This document shows positions 3,643 to 29,379 of a DNA stretch of 32,366 nt, piece by piece. Every line of letters begins with the position of its first letter. Positions within the stretch are counted from its first letter, which is position 1. The stretch is from Gammaproteobacteria bacterium (GTDB lineage: Bacteria; Pseudomonadota; Gammaproteobacteria; DRLM01): positions 1 through 32,366 of the forward strand of contig JAHFRV010000036.1 of NCBI GenBank assembly GCA_023266095.1. Direction: 5' to 3'. A program made the translations under genes and the position numbers. The notes beneath the pieces are model-generated. The model did no database searches. It was not told where the DNA came from and worked only from the letters and a program-made list of their open reading frames with translations.

Positions 3643-6105
3643 TTAAAATAATTGCTCCGGAATAGCCGGTGCCGCCCTGCCCGGTTGTGTGCCGTCGGTT
3701 TCGGGTGTCAACCCCGTCGCGGAGGTGGGCGGGATATTGTCGGCGAAAAAGGTTTCAAAAATGGCGTCGTTCTCGCCGGGCTCGGCTTGCAGGCCGGTCA
3801 CGGGATTGATGCGCATCGATACCAACCCCGGCGGCTGTTGCAAAGGCCGGTCCGGCACACCTTGCAACGCGGCACGCATGAAGTCTATCCACATCGGCAG
3901 GGCGGCGCGGCCGCCGGTCTCGGCATTGCCCAGCGGCCGGGTGTCGTCGAAGCCGACCCAGGCCACGGTGGCCACCGCCGGGCTGTAGCCGGCGAACCAG
4001 GCGTCGCGCTGGTCATTGGTGGTGCCGGTTTTACCGGCGATGTCGCTACGGCCCAGTTGCGCGGCGCGCTGGGCGGTGCCGAGGCGGATCACGTCTTTCA
4101 TCATACTGGTCATGAGATAAGCATTTTGCGCGCTGATTACCCGTGGCGCCACTTTCGTGGCGGGCGCGGTCCGGGTGATGAGATTATTAGCGGCGGAAGT
4201 ATCGGTGCTCGCTGGGATGGCAGGGCTGTCGTTGGTGCAGTCGGCGCAGACCCGGATCGGCTCGGCCTGCCAGAGGATCGCGCCCCGGGCGTCTTCGATG
4301 CGGTCGATGAAATAAGGCGCGATGCGATAGCCGTTATTGGCGAATACCGCATAGCCGGCCGCCAGCGTGAGAGGGGTGACGCTGTTACTGCCCAGAGCGA
4401 GGGACAGATTACGCGGCATCGAGGCTTTGTCGAAGCCGAAGCGGCTGATGTGGTTGATGGCGGTGTCGATGCCCACCGCGCGCAATACCCGGATCGATAC
4501 CAAGTTGCGGGAGTGGGTTAAAGCCTCGCGCAGGCGGGTCGGCCCATAAAACTCGCCCGAGTAGTTTTCCGGGCGCCAGGCGTTGTCCAGCTCGCCGCTG
4601 TCGAAGACCACGGGCGCATCGTTAATGACTGTGGCCGGGGTCATACCGTGTTCCAAGGCGGCGGAGTAAATGAAGGGTTTGAAGCTGGAGCCCGGTTGCC
4701 GAATGGCCTGGGTGACCCGGTTGAATTTGCTGCGGTAGAAATCGAAGCCGCCCACCAGGGCCAGCACCGCGCCATCGCTGGGCCGCAGGGCCACCAGCGC
4801 GCCTTCCACCTCGGGTACTTGGGCCAAGCGCGCCTGGCCGTTTTTGTCGATGGCTAAACGCAGGATATCGCCGGGCCTGGCCAGATCCATTGGGCGGACT
4901 GGGCCGTTGCTCTGCGTCCGTCGCGCCCATGCCGTTCCCTCCAGCGGGATGGAAATATATGTGCCGTTCTTGAGTAGCGCCCGGAGCTGACTCGCGTCGC
5001 TATTCACCACCAAGGCAGGCAGCAGGCCGCCTAGTGTGTCGTAAGCGGACAAGAGGGCGACATAATCTTCGGCCTTGGCCTGAGCCGGCAGTTTCACATG
5101 GGCCTCGGCGCCGCGGTAGCCGTGTCGCCGGTCATAATCCAGTAACGCATCGTGCAAGGCGTGGTTGGCGGCGGCCTGCAAACGGGTATCGAGGGTGGTG
5201 TAAACCTTCATCCCGGTGCTGTAGATGGTCTCCCCGTAGCGCTGGAACAACTCGGCACGAACCTGCTCGGCGAGGTAGGAGGCTTCTGATTCGATGGACT
5301 GACCGCGGAGCCGGGCGGTGTCTTGCTCTTCGATCGCCGCACGGTAGGCCTCTTCGGTGAGGAAGCCCAGGTCGCGCATGCGGCCCAGCACATAATTACG
5401 GCGGGAGAGGGCCCGGGCCGGATCGGCGATGGGGTTATAGCGCGACGGCGCTTTGGGCAGGCCGGCGATCATGGCCATCTGTGCCACCGTCAGCTGAGGC
5501 AGTTCCGTTCCGTAATACACGTGTGCGGCGGCGGCCACCCCATAGGCCCGCTGGCCCAGGTAGATCTTATTGAGGTACAGCTCGAGGATTTCCTGTTTGG
5601 TGAATTCCTGTTCGATCTTGAAGGCCAGCAGGATTTCGTTGAGTTTCCGAAGATAGGTTTTTTCGCGGCCGAGGAAAAAGTTGCGCGCGACCTGCATGGT
5701 AATGGTGCTGCCGCCCTGGGTCTTTTGCCCGGTCGAAACCAGAATCCAGGCCGCCCGCAGTAGGCCCTGGTAATCGACGCCGGGGTGTTGGAAAAAGCGG
5801 TCGTCTTCCGCGGCGAGGATGGCCTTCACCAGGCCGCCGGGGACGGCGCTGAGGCTGACCGGGGTGCGCTTCATCTCTCCGTATTCGGCCAATAATTTAC
5901 GATCCGAGGTATACACCCGCAAGGGGACTTGGTAGCGTACGTCCCGCAACGCCTCGGCGGAAGGGAGCTGGGGGATCAGATAGAAATAGAAAGTGGCGGC
6001 AGCGATGATGCCGCCGATCAGCGCCAGCCCCGCTAGCATGATTGCAGCCTTCCGGGCCGCTTTTGAGGAAAATGTCATTGCTTGGGAGATAGCTGTGGAC
6101 TGCAT
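3643..6105 (-). CDS. ponA: Penicillin-binding protein 1A, bifunctional transglycosylase/transpeptidase
   Basis: This 820-residue class A PBP polymerises and cross-links peptidoglycan at the periplasmic face of the inner membrane. A membrane anchor spans about residues 21-44. The GT51 domain shows EDDRFFQHPGVD with catalytic Glu100, then QGGSTITMQ and RNFFLGREKT, and a second catalytic region LNKIYLGQ. The transpeptidase domain has SxxK at 473-476 (PGSSFKPF), SRN at 532-534 and KTGT at 692-695. An OB-like insert (about 320-435) separates the domains. Length is normal for PBP1A. The start is uncertain: neither the first ATG (6105) nor an in-frame ATG ten codons later (6078) has a good ribosome binding site. 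It is divergent from pilM, the classical arrangement in pseudomonads and relatives. The symbol mrcA is also used. Confidence 0.95.
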   Translation of the reverse strand: MQSTAISQAMTFSSKAARKAAIMLAGLALIGGIIAAATFYFYLIPQLPSAEALRDVRYQVPLRVYTSDRKLLAEYGEMKRTPVSLSAVPGGLVKAILAAEDDRFFQHPGVDYQGLLRAAWILVSTGQKTQGGSTITMQVARNFFLGREKTYLRKLNEILLAFKIEQEFTKQEILELYLNKIYLGQRAYGVAAAAHVYYGTELPQLTVAQMAMIAGLPKAPSRYNPIADPARALSRRNYVLGRMRDLGFLTEEAYRAAIEEQDTARLRGQSIESEASYLAEQVRAELFQRYGETIYSTGMKVYTTLDTRLQAAANHALHDALLDYDRRHGYRGAEAHVKLPAQAKAEDYVALLSAYDTLGGLLPALVVNSDASQLRALLKNGTYISIPLEGTAWARRTQSNGPVRPMDLARPGDILRLAIDKNGQARLAQVPEVEGALVALRPSDGAVLALVGGFDFYRSKFNRVTQAIRQPGSSFKPFIYSAALEHGMTPATVINDAPVVFDSGELDNAWRPENYSGEFYGPTRLREALTHSRNLVSIRVLRAVGIDTAINHISRFGFDKASMPRNLSLALGSNSVTPLTLAAGYAVFANNGYRIAPYFIDRIEDARGAILWQAEPIRVCADCTNDSPAIPASTDTSAANNLITRTAPATKVAPRVISAQNAYLMTSMMKDVIRLGTAQRAAQLGRSDIAGKTGTTNDQRDAWFAGYSPAVATVAWVGFDDTRPLGNAETGGRAALPMWIDFMRAALQGVPDRPLQQPPGLVSMRINPVTGLQAEPGENDAIFETFFADNIPPTSATGLTPETDGTQPGRAAPAIPEQLF

Positions 6106-7892
<1,787 letters not shown>

Positions 7893-11302: not shown

Positions 11303-11370
11303 ATTATTGAGCGGCGTATCAGTGGGGCGTGCGAGAGTTTGCCGTCATCCTACGTCGCTGGAGGTCAGGT

Positions 11371-13458
11371 ATGTTGAACATGATAAAAATGACAGGTGTG
11401 TTGTTAATGATCGCGGTCTTGAGCGCCTGCGGCGGCGGGGATGGGTTTAGCGGCGGGACAACGCCAGAGCCTGACCCGTCCGAACAGCCTCCCAGTGATA
11501 GCAATTCCGCAGTGACCGCGGCGATTAGTCTAGCGACCAGTCAAATATCGATCAAATCGGACAACTCGGACAGCGCCACCGTCACCGCGACGGTGCTGGA
11601 CGCCAATAACGCGGTGGTACCGGGCGTAGATGTGGCCTTCAAGGCCAGCGGCGGTCAATTGACCGCATCCGCGGTGAAAACCGATGACACGGGCAAGGCC
11701 ACGGTGTTACTTTCTTCGGGTAGCAGTGATCCAAGCAACCGCATCGCCACCGTCACCGCCACGGTAACCGGTATCGCCCCAGCACAGATACCCGTCAAAA
11801 TCAGCGGTTCGACTATCACTATTACGGCGAGTAAGACTTCGCTGATTCCCGTTACCGCGCCCACCGCGACCTTGACGCTGACCGCCAAGAACGCGAGCGG
11901 CCAAGGTGTTTACAATGCCCCGTTGACCTTGAGTGTTGCCGGGGTTGGCGCCACGCCGGGTGTGGCTACACTGTCTGCCACCACCGGCAATACCGATGTG
12001 TCGGGTGTGTTGAGCGCCACCATTACCGGCAGCTCGCCGGGCACCGTGCGTCTGGCGGTCAGCGGCTTGGGCTATGCCGCCACCCAAGATTTCACCGTGG
12101 TGTCGGTGGCCAGCGCCTTCCAGATCACGGCACCGACTTCCAGTCCGGCCTCCGCCTCTATCGGTTCCAATCTCACCGTCACCGTCTCGGCGCCCAATTC
12201 GAGCAGTGTAAGGTTCGTCACCACCTTGGGTGTATGGGACGGTTCGGCCAATTCCATGGTGATCAAGCCGGTAAGCGGCGGGGTAGCCTCCGCGGTACTG
12301 AGCTCCGCGGTCAATGGTGGTGTCGCGAATGTGCAGGTCTTGGATGCCAATAATTCGACGATCCAGGATTCCATCGCGGTATTGATATCCGCCCCGGCCA
12401 GCACGGCCAGCGCGATTACTCTGCAATCGGATGTCAGCGTACTGGCGCCAAGTAGCGGCGGTTTGGTAAATCAGGCGATTTTGACCGCCACGGTGAAAAA
12501 TGCCAGCCTGCAACCCGTCGCCAACGCCGCGGTGATCTTTTCCATCTCCAGCGCCACCGGCGGCGGCGAGTCCCTATCGATAGCCTATGGGCTTACTGAT
12601 TCCGCCGGTGAAATCAAATCGACATTCACCTCCGGCAATTTAGCTTCTACACAAAGTGGCGTAGTGGTGACGGCGACGGTAGTGGATGCTGCAGGTGTGA
12701 TGATTGACTCCGCGGACAAGAGCATCGTGATCGGCGGTGCCGCGGGTTCCGTGGTGGTCGGCGGCGGCACCGAGGTGGCTGCGCTCGACCCGGCTACCTA
12801 TTCTTATCCCATGTCAGTGTTGGTGGCGGACACCAACGGCAATGCCATCAGCGGCGCGGTAGTCACCTTGAGCGTATGGCCCGCCTATTACGCCGGCGGC
12901 TATTGGGTCGACACTGATCCCGATCCTTCTCCGGACGCGGTGATATGTGGGGTGGCTCGATTCGGCGCGTCCCTTAACGAGGATGGTAATGAGAATCTTA
13001 CTCTGGATGCGGGCGAAGACATTGGACCCAATGAGGATCTGAACAGTAATGGGTCATTGGATATCCCGACGGATCTCAATGGAGACGGTGACTATGTGGA
13101 TGCGGGTGAGAACCCGGGTGTGGCTTATGTGGATAATGGAATAACCATCCGGCTAAGCGAAGATTTGGATGGCGATGCGGCGCCCGATTTTGTGCTCCCT
13201 GATGGCCAGCTCACGCCTGGCAATTCCGCGGGTGGTGCCGCGCCCCGTACCCTGGTCACCGACTCCAATGGAGTGGCGACCTTCAGCCTGGTTTACCTCA
13301 AGGCCCACGCGGCCTGGATCAAAACCCGTATCCGTGCCAGCGTCGAGGTCTTCGGCACCGAAACCACCGGCACGATAAACTTATGGCTCCCGGCGCAAAG
13401 GGAAGAGGCCGAATCATGTCTATTGCCGGATTCGCCATTTAATCCGGCGGGTCTGTAA
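11371..13458 (+). CDS. Ig-like (BIG1/invasin-type) lipoprotein with calcium-loop-like repeats
   Basis: This predicted surface lipoprotein has 695 residues from the ATG at 11371, which is preceded by GGAGG at 11360-11364. The frame is open 14 codons further upstream, but that stretch looks non-coding. The signal sequence ends in the lipobox LSAC at Cys20. It is followed by a Gly-, Pro- and Ser-rich linker and several BIG1/invasin-like beta domains; the clearest is at about residues 49-141, with ATVTATVLDANNAVVPGVDV. Near residues 530-610 an acidic segment carries repeated D-x-[D/N]-x-[D/N]-xxx-D loops (DGNENLTLD, DLNSNGSLD, DLDGDAAPD, plus the related DLNGDGDYVD). These resemble the PilY1-type calcium site. 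Position between pilQ and aroK suggests an envelope or pilus-linked role, which is inference. An adhesin is the main alternative. Confidence 0.85.
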   Translation: MLNMIKMTGVLLMIAVLSACGGGDGFSGGTTPEPDPSEQPPSDSNSAVTAAISLATSQISIKSDNSDSATVTATVLDANNAVVPGVDVAFKASGGQLTASAVKTDDTGKATVLLSSGSSDPSNRIATVTATVTGIAPAQIPVKISGSTITITASKTSLIPVTAPTATLTLTAKNASGQGVYNAPLTLSVAGVGATPGVATLSATTGNTDVSGVLSATITGSSPGTVRLAVSGLGYAATQDFTVVSVASAFQITAPTSSPASASIGSNLTVTVSAPNSSSVRFVTTLGVWDGSANSMVIKPVSGGVASAVLSSAVNGGVANVQVLDANNSTIQDSIAVLISAPASTASAITLQSDVSVLAPSSGGLVNQAILTATVKNASLQPVANAAVIFSISSATGGGESLSIAYGLTDSAGEIKSTFTSGNLASTQSGVVVTATVVDAAGVMIDSADKSIVIGGAAGSVVVGGGTEVAALDPATYSYPMSVLVADTNGNAISGAVVTLSVWPAYYAGGYWVDTDPDPSPDAVICGVARFGASLNEDGNENLTLDAGEDIGPNEDLNSNGSLDIPTDLNGDGDYVDAGENPGVAYVDNGITIRLSEDLDGDAAPDFVLPDGQLTPGNSAGGAAPRTLVTDSNGVATFSLVYLKAHAAWIKTRIRASVEVFGTETTGTINLWLPAQREEAESCLLPDSPFNPAGL

Positions 13459-17151: not shown

Positions 17152-18741
17152 ATGAATTCGGAACAAGATGGTTTGCTGCACGACGAGGCGGCACCGCATA
17201 TCGCGCGGCTCGGTCTGCTCAGCGAACCATTCGCGGGTACCAGCGACGGCCAGCACTTTTTTTACGCCGACGCCAGCCGTGAACAGCGCTTGGATCTCAT
17301 GCAACATCTCGCCCCTTACAGCGAGCTGCTGGTGGTGATCGGCGTGCCCGGCGTCGGCAAAACCACGCTCCTGCACCAGTTCGTGGCCCGCGCCAGTGAG
17401 ACCTGGCGCATCGCGGTGGTGAGCGCCCAGCCAGGCATGGACTGCGACGAATTCATGACGCAGGTATTGGAAGGCTTCGACCTGCCCGGTGATGGCCAGT
17501 CCTCGGCCGACGCGCAGCGCGCCATGCTTGTCACCCATCTACGCGCCTTGCGGCAAAGCGCGCAAGTGCCCATGTTGCTGGTGGATGACGCCCATCTGCT
17601 CGATGCCGAGGTTTTGGAGCTGATTCTCAGTTTGGTCGAGGAAAACGACGCCGGACAGCTGCTGTCGGTGATGTTGTTCGGAAATCCCGCTTTGCAATCC
17701 AATTTGGCCGCCCCGGCCTTGGCGGCCTTGCAAAGCCGTATTGCCCACAGCTTCGATATTCCGCCGCTGAATGAACAGGAGACCGCCCGCTACATCCGCC
17801 ACCGCATGCGCGCCGCCGGCGCCCAGGACGATGGACCATTCAATCCGGTGGTGACCGCTAAAATTTACGACGCTTCCGGCGGCATCCCTTCCGCCATTAA
17901 CGAGCTGGCGCATCATTTCTTGTCCGACGCGCCCAGCGCCATGTCCGAACAGCGCGACCGGCCGCCGGGTGTAAAACGCGCCGCGCCCGGTGAAGCGAGA
18001 GTCGGCATCGACAAACGCTGGATCGCCGTGGCGGTGGCGGGCGTAGCGGTCGCCGCCGTGCTGCTGGTCGGGCGTTTCACTGATCAAGGTTCCGAAGGAG
18101 GCAAACCAGTGGACAACACGGCCACGGTATTGTCTTTGCCGCCGCCCGTCGATAGTGAGGCCGAATCGCGGGTCCTGCGCGACGAAAGTGAGCTGGCCTT
18201 GGGTGAAACGCCCGCTGAGGCGATGCCGCCCGAACCGGTATTTGAAGAGGCCGCGCCGGAGACAGCCGTTCCAGTGCCGGAAGCCGCCCCAGAAAGCGCG
18301 GTCGAGGTGACGCCTCCTCCCGTCAAACCGGTGCCGTCCGCGCCACCGCCACCGCCCAAGACGGTTGAGCCACGGGTGAAAGTGGTGGTACCGCCGGTGA
18401 AGAAGCCCGTCGTGGCGCCGGTCCCCGTTCCCGCTGCGCCAGGTGACATCAAACGCGAGGCCTGGTTACAGGGTCAACCGCCCGGCAGTTTCACCCTGCA
18501 ATTGATGGCGCTCAAAGATGAAAATGACGTGCGCCGCACCATGGAAAAGTACAAATTGCAGGATCAGGCCGCCTATTTCACCATCCAACGCAACGGCCAG
18601 ACCCTCTACGCTCTGGTCTATGGCGCCTATCCGTCGCGGGCCGAGGCCGTTCGCGCCGGCCAAAAATTACCCGTGGGCCTGGTCTCCGGCCAACCGTGGG
18701 CCCGCACCTTCAAGAGTATTCACGACGATATCCGCCAATAA
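17152..18741 (+). CDS. damX: DamX-like division protein: AAA ATPase plus SPOR domain
   Basis: This 529-residue inner-membrane protein has an ExeA/GspA-like cytoplasmic ATPase domain at about 20-265. Its Walker A is GVPGVGKTT (64-72) and its Walker B is MLLVDDAHLL (141-150). A single membrane helix spans 290-308. A long Pro/Val/Glu-rich periplasmic linker (about 315-440) and a C-terminal SPOR domain (about 445-529) follow. SPOR domains bind denuded glycan at the division septum. P. aeruginosa DamX (same locus, after aroB) has this architecture, which supports the name; E. coli DamX lacks an obvious intact ATPase. ATG at 17152 follows a purine-rich GAGGTGAGGA site. Both Walker motifs look intact, so ATP binding is plausible. 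Confidence 0.88.
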   Translation: MNSEQDGLLHDEAAPHIARLGLLSEPFAGTSDGQHFFYADASREQRLDLMQHLAPYSELLVVIGVPGVGKTTLLHQFVARASETWRIAVVSAQPGMDCDEFMTQVLEGFDLPGDGQSSADAQRAMLVTHLRALRQSAQVPMLLVDDAHLLDAEVLELILSLVEENDAGQLLSVMLFGNPALQSNLAAPALAALQSRIAHSFDIPPLNEQETARYIRHRMRAAGAQDDGPFNPVVTAKIYDASGGIPSAINELAHHFLSDAPSAMSEQRDRPPGVKRAAPGEARVGIDKRWIAVAVAGVAVAAVLLVGRFTDQGSEGGKPVDNTATVLSLPPPVDSEAESRVLRDESELALGETPAEAMPPEPVFEEAAPETAVPVPEAAPESAVEVTPPPVKPVPSAPPPPPKTVEPRVKVVVPPVKKPVVAPVPVPAAPGDIKREAWLQGQPPGSFTLQLMALKDENDVRRTMEKYKLQDQAAYFTIQRNGQTLYALVYGAYPSRAEAVRAGQKLPVGLVSGQPWARTFKSIHDDIRQ

Positions 18742-19006
18742 AAAATAGGCAGGTGTGCAGCACACGTGGCATTCACATTCGGCGGGTCGTGTTGCACGTA
18801 TCCGCTCTATGGTCCTTGACAACGAATCCGTTTCTGAATAGCGTTGGGTCCGCTGTCAAGAATAAGAATACCGCGAGTGCCATCATGGACCGGACTACTC
18901 CCCGCCGCGACACATCGGCAGCACCTCGGGGCTACCACAATGACCGCGGCGCCGCGTCGCGTCTACCCGGGCTCCCCGCCCTCGCTTCGCTCTCCTTGGC
19001 TCGTCG
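18742..19006. other. Intergenic stretch with a candidate promoter
   Basis: These 265 bases carry no recognised gene. TTGACA at 18816-18821 is a perfect -35 hexamer. At 17 bp spacing it is followed only by TAGCGT (18839-18844), a weak -10. It points toward the secreted-protein cassette. Open frames in this stretch have no protein-like character. Confidence 0.4.
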
Positions 19007-20085
19007 ATGGCTTGGCATGTATTGAGTGCCGCGCTGCTTTTCCCAACCGCCGGCCTTGGCGATAACTACCAGCCGAGCAACACCGCGCAATCCTTTCCCA
19101 CCCTGGAGCAGGCCGAGGCCGTCCTGCGCGCGGCCTACCCCGGCGGCGCCGATCTCACATTTGAGCACATTCTGAGCGAAACCCCCACGCACATTGTGCG
19201 TCTTTACTCCATACCCACCATCCCGCCCAATCCGCCTGTCTGGCTTAATTGCGACATACCAGGCGGCTACGCCTCAGGCCAGGCGCTGTGCGATGCGGCC
19301 CTGGCGCGCGACCCGCAGGGACCCTATGACAATATGCGCTATGTCGATTTCAACCCAGAGGGCTCCGACGGTGGCGGGGAAGGCAACCGGGGCGGATGCT
19401 TTTTATGTATCCCAGTCCTCCGTGGACTCCGGGGGCAGGTGTCCTGTTGTTTCATACTCAGCGTATGCGGTCCTGCCCCAGCAGCCATCCTTTCCTGAAA
19501 AACTATGTGCGCGCGATGGCCTGTGGCGGCGGACCCCCGACACATGGTAGCGGACCCGACCTGGCCTGCGGCAAGTCGCTCGCCTCGCTCACGGCGACCA
19601 TTACGGTGACCCGGGCGGCCTGCCCCATACAGCCGTTACCGCCCATCACGGATCCAGCCGCCCTGTTGTTTGAAAACAACCCGAGGCGCTCGGACACTAT
19701 ATGCCTGGTTCCTGCCATGTCCACCGCCTTGAGCTGCCTTTTGACGGCGGCAACCAACGCCGGCGGCACCCCCAGCGTCGGGTCGGCCTGCCGGCCGGCG
19801 GCGTATAATCGGCATTTGGGAAACGTGTGGACTAAGTGGGTTAAGGAGCTGAGGGACAACAATAATCCAGCCTGCGCGGCGTTGCGTAGTGAAGTGAAGA
19901 CGCATTTCAACGGGCATGGGTTGCTGAGGAGTCAGCGCCCCGTCCCCAACTCAAAACATATCACGGGTGAGGCGGTGGATGTGACCATCCGTCTACCTTC
20001 TGCCCAGATCGACACACTGGTGGCAGGCTGTCAACTGCGCCGTCCGTTACCTGTAAAAGACCGCGTCCATTTTATCCGCCGATGA
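19007..20085 (+). pseudogene. Secreted protein with C-terminal peptidase M15-like domain, frameshifted twice
   Basis: Coding sequence runs from ATG 19007 in one frame, continues in a second frame from near 19390, and in a third from near 19500. Removing one G from the GGGG run (19389-19392) and one A from the AAAAA run (19498-19502) gives one uninterrupted protein of 358 residues. It would have a hydrophobic N-terminus (VLSAALLFPTAG), a Cys-containing middle, and a C-terminal M15/VanY-like domain. That domain has SKHITGEAVD (zinc-ligand His and Asp, codons 19957 and 19978) and DRVHF (second His, codon 20068). M15 enzymes cut D-amino-acid peptide links in cell walls. It is either a decayed gene or two homopolymer sequencing errors. 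The start has no good ribosome binding site and is uncertain. Confidence 0.65.
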
Positions 20086-20098
20086 CAGGAGCACTGCG

Positions 20099-20971
20099 AT
20101 GAACCGCCCCAAAACACTCAAACACCCGCTGCTGTCGGTGCTGACTAGTTGCCTGCTAGCCGCGGCGTCACAGGCCGCCGAGCCGCCCGCCAGCGTCAAA
20201 GTCTACGCCCAGAACTTCGGCGACCGGGTGGTTTATCATTACCGCGTCATTAATCACGGTCCTTATGAGATTGCGAGAGTGGCAATCGGGGATGACGAAA
20301 AAAATCACGACGACAATGATGACTATATTTTTGAGCTGATAGAATTACCGTTAGGCTGGGATTTCGACACGGGTATTCCGGCCACCAGCGTCACGACACC
20401 CCCGGATTGGGAGGCGTACATGATCGTGCCCGAAGAAAGCGAAGTGATGGCCCTCGCCTTTGGGAAAAAGGAAGGCGCCTCGGCAACGATCCTGCCCGGC
20501 CAAACCCTGGACGGCTTCCTCAGCATCACGCTGCCCAAGGCGGATGACGCCTATCGTAACGGTCACGCCACCGTTTATTTTACTGATGGCTATCCAACAC
20601 GGGCGACGCTCCTCCTCGAACTCGCCGACACCACTCCACCTACTCTCAGCGTGAGCTTAACGCCCGCGACCCTCTGGCCGCCCAACGGCAAGCCTGTGCC
20701 CGTCACGGCTGCCATTACCGTGAAAGACGACTACGACCCCAACCCCGAGATCAAACTCGAATCCATCACCGCCAGCGAGCCGCTGCTGGCGGGTGACATC
20801 GCGGATGCCCAATTCGGTAGCGATGACCGGCGCTTCACCCTGAAAGCCAGGCGCGCAGGCGAAAATAAGTCAGGTCGTGTCTACACCGTCACCTACTCCG
20901 CCACCGATGCCTCCGGCAACAAAGCGACCGCCACCGCCGAGGTCACTGTTCCGCACGAGCAGGGCAAATAG
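20099..20971 (+). CDS. Secreted protein with HYR-like C-terminal domain
   Basis: This 290-residue protein has a clear signal peptide (residues 1 to about 26, LLSVLTSCLLAAASQA). The N-terminal domain (about 28-180) is beta-rich and contains a strongly acidic loop, DDEKNHDDNDD. The C-terminal domain (about 182-286) starts TPPTLSVSLTPATLWPPNGK and ends YSATDASGNKATATAEV. It resembles HYR/Ig-like modules with the recurring LWPPN motif found in secreted and surface proteins. AGGAG at 20087-20091 sits 7 bases before the ATG, and the gene starts 13 bases after the preceding M15-like frame ends, so the two form a pair. No enzymatic signature was seen; function is unknown. Confidence 0.8.
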   Translation: MNRPKTLKHPLLSVLTSCLLAAASQAAEPPASVKVYAQNFGDRVVYHYRVINHGPYEIARVAIGDDEKNHDDNDDYIFELIELPLGWDFDTGIPATSVTTPPDWEAYMIVPEESEVMALAFGKKEGASATILPGQTLDGFLSITLPKADDAYRNGHATVYFTDGYPTRATLLLELADTTPPTLSVSLTPATLWPPNGKPVPVTAAITVKDDYDPNPEIKLESITASEPLLAGDIADAQFGSDDRRFTLKARRAGENKSGRVYTVTYSATDASGNKATATAEVTVPHEQGK

Positions 20972-20979
20972 CACCGTTG

Positions 20980-21005
20980 GGCGGAAGCCCAGCAGGCGTT
21001 CCGCC
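20980..21005. terminator. Weak hairpin after the secreted cassette
   Basis: GGCGGAA at 20980-20986 pairs with TTCCGCC at 20999-21005 across a 12-base loop, 9 bases after the stop codon at 20971. No T-run follows. It is a possible 3'-end structure, with weak support. Confidence 0.3.
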
Positions 21006-21069
21006 GCGTTGCTTAGAAAATGGGGCTCCCTAAAATATTTAGCCTAATGCCGTTCTTGCCGGCATTGCG

Positions 21070-21099
21070 TTGAAATGCCCGGCCTCGCGCTTGTATACT
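21070..21099 (+). promoter_or_regulatory. Candidate promoter of gltB
   Basis: TTGAAA (21070-21075) and TATACT (21094-21099) are 18 bp apart, with four and five matches to the sigma-70 consensus. They lie about 100 bp before the gltB start, leaving a leader of roughly 90 bases. This is the best promoter-like sequence in the gap before the glutamate synthase genes. Confidence 0.5.
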
Positions 21100-21197
21100 C
21101 CTGTCCCATTTCGCCTCCGGCGGGGATGGGTTCGCGCGCCCTTTAGCTTTAGGGCATGCTATGAAATCGGTCAGCTAGCGAGACAGGCGAAAAAAGA

Positions 21198-24100
21198 GTG
21201 AACATCACCGACACACCCTTGGGGCTTTATAGGCCCGAATTCGAAAAAGACAGTTGCGGCTTCGGGCTGATCGCCCAGATGGACGGCAAGGCCAGCCATT
21301 GGCTGGTGCAGACCGCCATCAACTCCCTGGCGTGTCTGACCCACCGCGGCGCGGTGGCGGCCGACGGCAAGACCGGCGACGGCTGCGGCATCTTGATGAA
21401 GCTGCCGGTCTCCTTCATGCGCGCGATGGCGGCCGAGGCGGGTTTCGACGTCGCCGAGCGCTTCGCGGTGGGCATGGTCTTTTTGAATCAGGACACCGCC
21501 AAAGCTGCTACGGCCAAACAGCGCGTGACCGGCGAATTGGTCGAGCAAGGTTTCAAGGTGCCTGGCTGGCGGGTGGTGCCGGTGGACCCCAGCGCCTGCG
21601 GCGCCGAGGCCCTTAAGAGCCTGCCCCATATCGAGCAGGTGTTCGTCGATATTCCCGCCGGCATGGACGACGCGGCCGCCGAGCGGCATTTGTACATCGC
21701 CCGCCGCCGCAGCGAAAAGGGCCTCGCCTCGCAGGACCCGGTGTTTTATATTCCCAGCCTGACCCGCCGCGTGTTGTCGTATAAAGGTTTGATCATGCCG
21801 GCCAACCTGCCGGTGTTTTACGGCGACCTGCAAGACGAACGCCTGGCCTCGGATCTCTGCGTCTTTCATCAGCGCTTCTCCACCAACACCTGGCCCGAAT
21901 GGCGGCTGGCGCAGCCCTTCCGTTATCTCGCCCACAATGGCGAGATCAACACCGTGCAAGGCAATCGTTATTGGTCGGTGGCGCGCGGCAACAAATTCCA
22001 GATGCCCGCCATTCCCAATATGGACGACATCCGCCCGCTGGTGTCGATGACCGGCTCCGATTCCAGCAGTCTCGACAATATGCTGGAGGCCCTGCTGGCG
22101 GGCGGCATGGACATCTTCCGCGCCATGCGTCTCTTGATTCCGCCGGCGTGGAATAACGTCGAGACCATGGACCCTGATCTGCGCGCCTTCTACGAATACC
22201 ACTCCATGCACATGGAACCCTGGGACGGCCCGGCCGGTATCGTGCTCACCGACGGCCGTTATGCCGCCTGCGTGATGGACCGCAACGGCCTGCGCCCCGC
22301 GCGTTACGTGGTGACCAAGGACCGCCACATCACCCTCGCCTCGGAAATCGGCGTGTATCCGTATAAGCCGGAAGACGTAGTGGCCAAGGGCCGCCTGCGT
22401 CCCGGCGAGATGATCGCCGCCGATACCTTTACCGGCGAGTTGCTGTTGCCGGCCGACATCGACACTCTGCTCAAGTCCCGGCAGCCTTATAAAGAATGGA
22501 TGAAACAGAACGGCCGCAGTTTGGATGCCGGCCGTAACGAAGCGCCGCCCTCGCCGTGGGACGAGGAAACCGTGGCGGTGTACCAGAAGATGTTCCAGGT
22601 CAGCTTCGAGGAGCGCGACCAGGTGCTGCGGGTGCTGGCCGAGGCCGGACAAGAGGCGGTGGGCTCGATGGGCGACGATACGCCGATGCCGGTCCTGTCG
22701 CGCCAAGTGCGTTCGCTGTACGACTATTTCCGCCAGCAGTTCGCCCAGGTCACCAACCCGCCCATCGATCCGCTGCGCGAGCAGATCGTGATGTCGCTGG
22801 AGACCTGCTTCGGCCGCGAGCGCAACCTGTTCGAGGAAACCCCGGCTCATGCGACCCGGCTGGTGGCCGAGTCGCCGGTGCTGTCGGAGGAAAAATTCCA
22901 GAACCTGCTCAGCCTCGACGGTGTTGATTACGCCCATCAACGGCTCAGCCTGCAATACGATTCCGCCACGGGCCTGCGCGCCGCCATCGAGGCGATGTGC
23001 GATGCGGCGGAGGCGGCGGTGCGCGCCGGCAAGGTGATCCTGGTGTTGTCCGATCAAGGCATCGAGCCCGGCAAGTTGCCCATCCACGCCCTGCTCGCCA
23101 CCGGCGCGGTGCATCATCGCTTGATCAACCGCGGCCTGCGCTGCGACGCCAACATCGTGGTGGAGACCGCCACCGCGCGCGACCCGCACCACTTCGCCGC
23201 GTTGATCGGTTACGGCGCGACGGCGGTGTTTCCCTATCTCGCGTATCAATGTCTGTACGATTTGCTGCGCAGCGGCGAGATCAAAGGCAAGGAAGTGGAT
23301 CAGCTGGCGCCCGCCTATCGCAAGGGTATCAATAAGGGGCTGTACAAGATCATCTCCAAGATGGGCATCTCCACCATCGCCAGTTACCGCGGCGCCCAGC
23401 TGTTCGAGGCGCTCGGTCTCGGTAGTGAAGTGGTGGACCTGTGTTTCCCCGGCACCAGCAGCCGTATTCAGGGCGCCAACTTCGAGGACTTGGAGAGCGA
23501 TCAGCAGCAACTGGCCCGCGAGGCCTGGTTGACCCGTAAGTCCATCCAGCAAGGCGGCCTGCTCAAGTTCATTCACGGCGGCGAATACCACGCCTACAAT
23601 CCCGACGTGGTCACCACCTTGCGTCTTGCGGTGCAGAGCGGCGATTACGCGGATTATCAAAAATACGCGGCTATCGTCAACAGCCGGCCGGTCGCCACCT
23701 TCCGCGATCTGTTGAAGATCCGCGCCGGCATCACGCCGATCGCCATCGACGAAGTCGAGCCGGTGGAAGCCATCCTGCCGCGCTTCGATTCCGCCGGCAT
23801 GTCGCTCGGCGCGCTCTCGCCCGAGGCGCACGAGGCGCTGGCCACGGCGATGAACCGCCTGGGCGGCCGTTCCAACTCCGGCGAGGGCGGCGAAGACCCG
23901 GCCCGCTACGGCACGGAACGGATGTCCAAGATCAAACAAGTGGCCTCCGGCCGGTTCGGCGTGACGCCCGCGTATCTGATCAACGCCGAGGTGTTGCAGA
24001 TCAAGATCGCGCAGGGCGCCAAGCCCGGCGAGGGCGGCCAGCTGCCCGGCGACAAGGTCAACAAACTCATCGCGCGTCTGCGTTACGCGCGGCCCGGCGT

Positions 24101-28272: not shown

Positions 28273-28457
28273 GGTAGGTTAGCGTTTTTTGCGTAACCCA
28301 CCATGGCGCGCCGTGAGGCGCACTTTGCATGTATTCAAGGAGTCGCTGCGCGGCGGGTTGGCGGGTTACGGCGCGACCCTCACCCCATCCCTCTCCCGCT
28401 CGCGGGAGAGGGGGGTCGGCCAAGAGTGCAATTAGATGGGCGCCTAACCCGCCCTAC
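28269..28457. repeat. Nested repeat mosaic after hemE
   Basis: The outer arms GTAGGGTAGGTTAGCG (28269-28284) and CGCCTAACCCGCCCTAC (28441-28457) are complementary with few mismatches and begin inside the hemE stop codon region. Inside lie further GGTTA / TAACCC fragments and a compact palindrome, CCCTCTCCCG (28389-28398) with CGGGAGAGGG (28403-28412). The outer element resembles the repeat at 107-219. The mosaic suggests one repeat inserted into another. An open frame through it joins the next gene but is not protein-like. Confidence 0.7.
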
Positions 28458-28515
28458 ATCCAGCTGGCCGGTGCAATCACGTCTCGCGCCGCACACGAAT
28501 TTGAGGAGCAGTTCT

Positions 28516-29379
28516 TTGATCGAACATTTCGAACCTTTGCGCAATATGGAAACCTTCAGCGATGAGATGTTCAATCGCATCATCGCCTTTCAAGAGCGCC
28601 AGCATCCGGCCTGGAATGCCGAACTGCCCTTTGCCCAGCGCATCGCCGGTCTGCCGCTGCATTATTTGATCTTCAGTTGTCCCGACCGCGATCCCGCCAA
28701 GTTCGGCCCCACGGTGGCGCCGTATATCCCGCTGCGCGACGAAATGCGCAAGATCGCGCTCTACGCGCGCCAAGTGGCGGAAGTGCCGGTGGTGTGCGAT
28801 TTTCATCCCGGTAATGGCTTCGTCGGCAGCCTGCTGGCACGCGAGGGCGTGAAAGTGATCGGCGTGCGCGACCCGGCGGCCAAGCCGAATCAGATCAAAA
28901 ATTTTTACGACCGCGAGGTGTATGAGCTGCGCGAGCAGGCCGTCGCCGACATCGGCTTTTCTTTCGACGTGGCTTTTTCATCGTGGATGCCGGCGGGCGT
29001 GAATCTCACGCCGGAGATCGTCAAGCACCGGCCCAAGCTCATCGTCTTCATCCACACCCAACACGTCAACGAAGAGACCGGCGTGCCGCAGACCGGCACG
29101 CCCGAAGCCTTCAGTGATTTGCCCGCCGGCTATGAACTCATACACGAGTGGGGGATGACGCGGCCCAAAGATATCTTGCACGAGGTGTGGCCCGATCTGA
29201 CACCCAGCATCGAAGAGACCCGCTACGTCAAGGTGTATGTGGATGAGGGTTATCATCACATCGAAGTGCCGGACTATCTGCCCCCCGCCGAGGCTTATGA
29301 TTGGGAGCGCGAGTTGGAGATGGCATTGCTGGCGATCCAGGCCAAGGAACATTTGCGCGCGCAAGGCGTACAGGTGTAG
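28516..29379 (+). CDS. Putative SAM-methyltransferase-fold protein, function unknown
   Basis: This protein has 287 residues from TTG 28516, which follows GGAG (28505-28508) at 7 bases. The frame is open back to 28303, but that part is repeat DNA. After a helical N-terminus (ETFSDEMFNRIIAFQERQHPAW), a Rossmann-like core appears. VPVVCDFHPGNGFVGSLLAREGVKVIGVRDP looks like motif I of class I methyltransferases, with D-x-H-P-G-N-G-F in place of the usual D-x-G-x-G-x-G. A conserved-looking FSSWMPAGVNLTPEIVKHRPKLIVFIHTQHV block follows at the motif IV position. No signal peptide or membrane helix is present. The substrate is unknown, and it may be a non-catalytic relative. It is a single gene bounded by repeats and a hairpin. 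Confidence 0.75.
   Translation: MIEHFEPLRNMETFSDEMFNRIIAFQERQHPAWNAELPFAQRIAGLPLHYLIFSCPDRDPAKFGPTVAPYIPLRDEMRKIALYARQVAEVPVVCDFHPGNGFVGSLLAREGVKVIGVRDPAAKPNQIKNFYDREVYELREQAVADIGFSFDVAFSSWMPAGVNLTPEIVKHRPKLIVFIHTQHVNEETGVPQTGTPEAFSDLPAGYELIHEWGMTRPKDILHEVWPDLTPSIEETRYVKVYVDEGYHHIEVPDYLPPAEAYDWERELEMALLAIQAKEHLRAQGVQV

Follow-up and report, generated by a model that had tools for sequence, protein, structure and literature searches.

The stretch of DNA analysed here, called the window, is 32,366 nucleotides long and corresponds to contig C62 of a 110-contig, 3.3 Mb draft genome of a gammaproteobacterium. A gene with AAA and SPOR domains in Pfam, which we take to be DamX-like, is followed in the window by an insert and then by gltB, gltD and a gene that is presumably hemE. 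The insert carries a broken gene, whose N-terminal and C-terminal parts are called the head and the tip, and an open gene directly downstream, called the partner gene. The features are as follows.

18742-21055, plus strand: insert that separates the DamX-like gene from gltB; neither of the same-genus genomes has it, nor do two further members of the family.
18900-19006, plus strand: copy of a dispersed repeat of about 110 bp, ending exactly before the ATG at 19007.
19007-19389, plus strand: head in the first frame, with a possible signal stretch and likeness to the N-terminal leaders of RHS proteins (homology, shuffles, codon score).
19330-19496, plus strand: zone of the frame break if there is a single net shift, bounded by stops; the middle frame is unsupported.
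19503-19617, plus strand: end of the head in the third frame, favoured by codon usage; leader similarity is marginal here (against L031, 34 of 2000 shuffles score as high).
19618-20085, plus strand: M15/VanY-like tip, frame intact, with H-x6-D and a final D-R-V-H-F conserved.
20099-20971, plus strand: partner gene, predicted to be exported, with a DUF11-like start and a C-terminal Ig-like domain.

In four of four relatives in which the junction was read, gltB lies directly 3' of the DamX-like gene; two of them (L015 in G002 and L016 in G001) are of the same genus, and two (L017 in G003 and L018 in G004) of the same family. DNA similarity to G002 ends at 18741 and restarts at 21056. This gap indicates that the broken gene and its neighbour at 20099-20971 constitute an insert of about 2.3 kb. 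The original prediction had proposed to judge the break by comparison with close relatives. The same-genus genomes have no insert to compare, and the intact counterpart, a gene of 297 codons, is found in another gammaproteobacterial genome, at L025. Elsewhere in the window, a 709-codon protein with three Big_1/invasin-type domains is encoded at 11329-13458, between pilQ-like and aroK-like genes. A 358-codon open reading frame at 28303-29379 aligns with relatives only from residue 59-71 or so, and its true start is probably further downstream.

The open reading frames 19007-19498, 19194-19550 and 19396-20085 lie in three different frames and together tile 19007-20085, as the original prediction had described. 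The frame of 19007 meets its first stop at 19496, the middle frame is stop-free from 19176 to 19547, and the third from 19330 to 20082. The stop positions and codon usage agree with this picture, and the gene is truly broken in frame. The break had been ascribed to two +1 changes, one in a GGGG run at 19389-19392 and one in an AAAAA run at 19498-19502. Both runs are present, and the arithmetic holds, as dropping one base from each gives 358 residues. However, the first and third frames overlap at 19330-19496, where one net shift would be enough to tile the region, and two +1 changes are one solution among many.

Codon usage, scored with 13 window genes as the training set, was positive for the first frame up to 19389 (0.05, 0.14 and 0.33 bits per codon in three parts) and best for the third frame from 19503 (0.05, versus -0.42 and -1.02 bits per codon). 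Between 19390 and 19498 all three frames are negative (-0.45 to -0.80 bits per codon); this middle section, which had been thought plausible, is without any supported frame. Over 19067-19617 the codon scores of the proposed path sum to 3.7; a single switch reaches 12.2 at best, and two switches with free positions reach 21.3. Alignments to RHS leaders do not separate one-shift from two-shift paths. On these codon scores and alignments, two +1 changes are rejected as a unique explanation, and the number and position of the frame changes are not identifiable from the sequence. Homopolymer runs of at least 4 bases are ordinary in the window (308, or 9.5 per kb; 7 of them in 19194-19550), and therefore a run near each frame boundary carries little weight. 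The longest single open frame, of 251 codons, is reached by 30 of 2000 Markov-1 shuffles and is only modestly unusual. Support beyond chance for the broken gene thus comes from the homology of its first-frame and third-frame pieces and not from the length of its frames.

Genes that vary in phase through homopolymers carry a long tract, of about 7 bases or more. The original prediction had raised phase variation as an option, and both proposed positions are indeed homopolymers. However, the runs have only 4 and 5 bases, where the window's longest run has 7, and the intact relative at L025 needs no shift. Programmed frameshifting is opposed by the lack of an X-XXY-YYZ slippery heptamer in 19320-19500. 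It is very improbable that either process switches the protein.

The head in the first frame resembles the N-terminal leader of an RHS protein in another genome (L031 in G132; E=1.2e-10, 44% identity over 71 amino acids). Pfam, which was applied to L031 only among the leader proteins, finds RHS repeats and DUF6531 in it. A profile built from the window head and this leader retrieved RHS-type proteins in G085 and G027. The scores of the head against the leaders of L031, L041 and L042, from three other genomes, are reached by 0 of 1000 shuffles each. Significant similarity stops near 19297. RHS leaders of other types, one of them from the same genome as the window, show no similarity to the head (919 of 1000 shuffles reach the score for L067 and 397 of 1000 for L074). 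The likeness to the RHS-repeat proteins with DUF6531 is confined to the leader; unlike them, the window gene is without RHS repeats and DUF6531, and its head joins the tip directly. Pfam finds no family in the three frame pieces at E 0.1, neither RHS repeats nor DUF6531 included.

A search of 369 genomes with the head gave six matches at E 0.01, its own genome included; the five others are G132, G334, G095, G013 and G233, of which the first three were inspected. The matches in G334 (E=5e-5) and G095 (E=0.007) look like chance, as they fall within proteins that, from reading them, we take to be phosphoesterase-like and monooxygenase-like, respectively. The leader profile also gave six matches, in 229 genomes, among them the own genome, G132 and G149; those in G085, G027 and G058 were inspected. 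The one in G058 falls in what is presumably a glycosyltransferase-like gene and is not RHS-type. The window head has no matches in plasmids or viral contigs, and the L031 leader has none in plasmids. RHS repeats occur on seven contigs of the window's own genome (L065-L071, on contigs C57, C87, C101, C96, C58, C92 and C7 of G000). Several of the RHS genes there are cut by contig ends, which leaves part of their tips and immunity genes unassembled.

The gene at L025 (JAGVME010000016.1, a gammaproteobacterial metagenome-assembled genome) spans 5374-6267, is free-standing and has a signal-like start; a homologue of the partner gene follows from 6281. Its flanking genes, which from reading their frames we take to be argC-like and erpA-like, place the locus at a different site from that in the window. 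The two loci are 81% identical in DNA over 19618-20970, with abrupt ends on both sides: matches per 30 nt rise from 7 to 27 at 19618 and fall from 25 to 7 right after the stop codon of the partner gene. These sharp ends indicate that the exchanged unit consists of the last 155 codons and the partner gene. The third-frame piece is 77% identical to the intact L025 gene over 156 columns, and the partner is 82% identical to its counterpart. In contrast, no relationship is detectable between the heads; shuffles score as high in 79 of 1000 cases with the first frame and in 844 of 1000 with the third. The L025 head has no significant similarity to RHS leaders and matched 3 of 293 genomes, at E 0.0025-0.009; another search with it gave no match. 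Tip and downstream gene were thus exchanged as one block in this one comparison; the unit is known in two copies, and the term module depends on window versus L025. Just 3' of the partner's stop codon, 32 bases at 20976-21007 match an RHS-bearing region of the own genome (L070) at 87.5%.

Between the window and L025, tip and partner share an omega of 0.24 (bootstrap 0.14-0.37 and 0.16-0.34, respectively); the two equal values span both lineages and cannot date the break. They indicate that tip and partner were under purifying selection for most of the divergence, in agreement with a window copy that was broken recently.

Further copies of the tip were sought in overlapping sets of genomes. It matched its own genome alone in 95 and in 369 genomes, and its own genome and G510 in 398; a search of 144 genomes gave G749 itself and G780. 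The matches in G510 (E=0.0096, internal stop) and G780 (E=0.0095, four stops) were dropped. There is no convincing second copy across the searched genomes except in the genome of L025. Against genome contigs, a 229-aa piece gave no match and a 90-aa core gave one locus, L025; one more search for the tip was also negative. The tip was found neither in plasmids or phages nor at the C-terminus of any full-length RHS protein, and PADLOC reported nothing. According to PMC3150448, VENN and DPxGL motifs mark CdiA and Rhs tips. Neither motif precedes the tip here; the window and L025 tips both start ACPIQPLPPITDP, and they are not filed as CdiA-CT or Rhs-CT.

The zinc-ligand motif of M15/VanY peptidases is H-x6-D followed by a final H. 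The original prediction had noted this pattern as intact in the third frame, and it is conserved in L025 as well: the two known sequences (2/2) agree at tip residues H115, D122 and H152. Two phage endolysins that are clear M15_3 members, L022 and L023, carry a nearly identical short stretch around the motif (hhalign probability 88 over 33 columns). In Pfam the M15 label is sub-threshold. VanY (PF02557) scores 13.2 bits with the window tip and 15.3 bits with the L025 tip, and Peptidase_M15_4 (PF13539) scores 13.8 bits with the L025 tip, all below the cut-off of 25. The tip shares the H-x6-D ... H pattern and the endolysin-like stretch with M15 peptidases (PF02557, PF13539 and Peptidase_M15_3, PF08291), but differs from them in its best Pfam score, 15.3 against 25, and in a long extra region before the motif. 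We therefore call it M15-like, from its sequence features, and do not file it as a family member. NCBIfam recognises neither the L025 gene nor the pieces of the broken gene in the window, and PDB sequences give nothing beyond chance with the tip. The structure model of the tip, made from two sequences, has a mean pLDDT of 38.6 and a second model one of 43.1, both too weak to use; in a fold comparison with the weak tip model no chain reached Z >=5 among 59 aligned, and no M15 structure was listed.

The partner gene has an AGGAG Shine-Dalgarno sequence at a good distance from its start, and its product has a signal-like N-terminal stretch; its C-terminal Ig-like domain is sub-threshold in Pfam. 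Searches for the partner matched only its own genome among 20 genomes (1/20), nothing in a further search, and 3 of 7 genomes in another set, where the extra matches are partial Ig-like pieces. Its C-terminal part matched 8 of 72,556 plasmid records at E 0.01, in surface-type proteins; seven of these span approximately residues 193-290 at 35-51%, the eighth residues 100-290 at 27%. The surface proteins with this Ig-like C-terminus include Calx-beta and vWA proteins. Since this domain is common in surface proteins, a structural role fits the partner as well as immunity does. In the own genome, a 65-codon frame at L020 (865-981, minus strand) matches the Ig-like end at 54-58% over about 40 residues; it may be a remnant or a common domain.

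These occurrences in surface proteins speak for the possibility that the tip serves the producer as a normal secreted enzyme of the cell wall and the partner as an accessory protein of its surface, with no role as toxin and immunity. The free-standing L025 gene, with its 297 codons and signal-like start, also speaks for it. However, a unit boundary inside a gene, different heads, and the likeness of one head to RHS leaders are typical of tip exchange. We regard an ordinary pair of this kind as rather unlikely.

The broken gene begins at the edge of the 110-bp repeat. Copies 76-81% identical to it are found in G001, of the same genus (L077 once, L076 twice), and a further sample of that genome (20 stretches, 343,083 bases) gave clear matches at L113, L104 and L105 and a weak one at L120, full or partial. 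No second copy was found in 359,430 sampled bases of the own genome, G000. The repeat is thus common in G001, where two copies stand in tandem near an RHS gene, and apparently rare in the sample of the own genome. It has no unusual RNA fold (z 0.72), and at E 1 Rfam has no family in the stretch 18600-21300. No Shine-Dalgarno-like triplet precedes the ATG at 19007; it is the sole start without any among 19 tested, although several others have three bases only. The start of the broken gene may have been truncated by the repeat, which we infer to be a second lesion beside the frame break.

This putative second lesion helps to weigh decay against sequencing error, both of which the original prediction had offered. 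The gene could be intact in the organism, the break being an error of sequencing or assembly in a metagenome-type assembly. The existence of an intact relative, the purifying selection on the tip and the draft state of the genome, with its 110 contigs, all agree with an error. On the other hand, the four neighbours (DamX-like gene, gltB, gltD and hemE) are full length across the relatives compared, and 20 putative genes elsewhere in the window (26,235 bases, only part of them compared with orthologues) are open. Moreover, one base error would explain neither why a ribosome-binding site is absent nor why the repeat ends at the start codon. Because of these two features decay is favoured, and an error is in our judgement unlikely.

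Alternatively, the tip might never have been in frame with the head: an orphan tip could have landed beside a head fragment, and the mismatch would be a scar of the junction. The significant similarity of the head ends well before the tip homology begins (near 19297 and at 19618), and no frame is supported in 19390-19498, as such a scar would have it. However, codon usage favours the frame of the tip from about 19503, upstream of the homology boundary, and marginal leader similarity is found there. We consider this unlikely.

Our preferred reading, to which we give an even chance, takes the locus for an orphan module of tip plus partner that was acquired and has recently been broken, similar in kind to polymorphic toxin/immunity cassettes. 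It draws directly on what is shown, namely the frames and their break, the unit boundaries, the leader similarity, the absence in relatives, the conserved ligands and the purifying selection. The 3' end of one gene and the whole next gene are exchanged onto unrelated heads, as in polymorphic toxins and orphan modules, and for this reason an orphan module is proposed. In polymorphic toxins, a single recombination replaces the tip along with its immunity gene, as stated in PMC3482391. Orphan tips often have no initiation signals, whereas the immunity genes that accompany them are expressed, as PMC3150448 describes. The locus resembles the orphan cdiA-CT/cdiI and rhs-CT/rhsI pairs of that source in its sharp-ended block of tip and downstream gene, in a tip without initiation signals and in an intact downstream gene. 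It differs from them, as described there, in having no VENN or DPxGL and no adjoining full-length parent, and in a partner that is predicted to be exported and Ig-like. M15-like enzymes are reported among the antibacterial effector domains of type VI secretion systems, with adjacent immunity genes, in the WHIX class (PMC12135965). The present locus shares an M15-like domain next to a putative immunity gene with that class. No paper on this tip-partner pair was found in a literature search that covered some of its possible names, and this does not imply that the pair is unpublished.

In the preferred reading, the acquired module would consist of an RHS-leader-like head joined directly to an M15/VanY-like tip without an RHS core, followed by an exported Ig-like partner. 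Tip and partner would travel as one unit and occur on different heads at different sites. We infer export, enzymatic activity, toxicity, immunity and loss of expression along the following lines. The tip would act in the periplasm of neighbouring cells by trimming the stem peptides of their peptidoglycan, and the partner, likewise exported to the periplasm, would protect the producer. Here at least one frame change interrupts the head, whose own start has probably been lost as well, so a secreted tip is unlikely to be made; the partner, with its intact frame and ribosome-binding site, may still be produced. The locus would then be an orphan module, kept or decaying, as orphan cdiA-CT/cdiI and rhs-CT/rhsI pairs are. 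The two copies, the missing motifs, the missing parent RHS protein with this tip, an L025 head unlike RHS leaders, the low M15 profile scores and a possibly structural Ig-like partner speak against a module. A more specific proposal is doubtful: that such loci encode coreless relatives of RHS weapons, short exported proteins in which an exchangeable RHS-type head is fused directly with an M15-like peptidoglycan-cutting tip, each accompanied by an exported Ig-like protein serving as periplasmic immunity.

The locus illustrates that behind a frame break seen in raw sequence there can be a mobile unit whose ends are sharply defined. If tip and partner are toxin and antidote, the known exchangeable modules would gain an M15-like tip and an immunity protein of the periplasm that is Ig-like, and RHS-type heads would be usable without the RHS shell.
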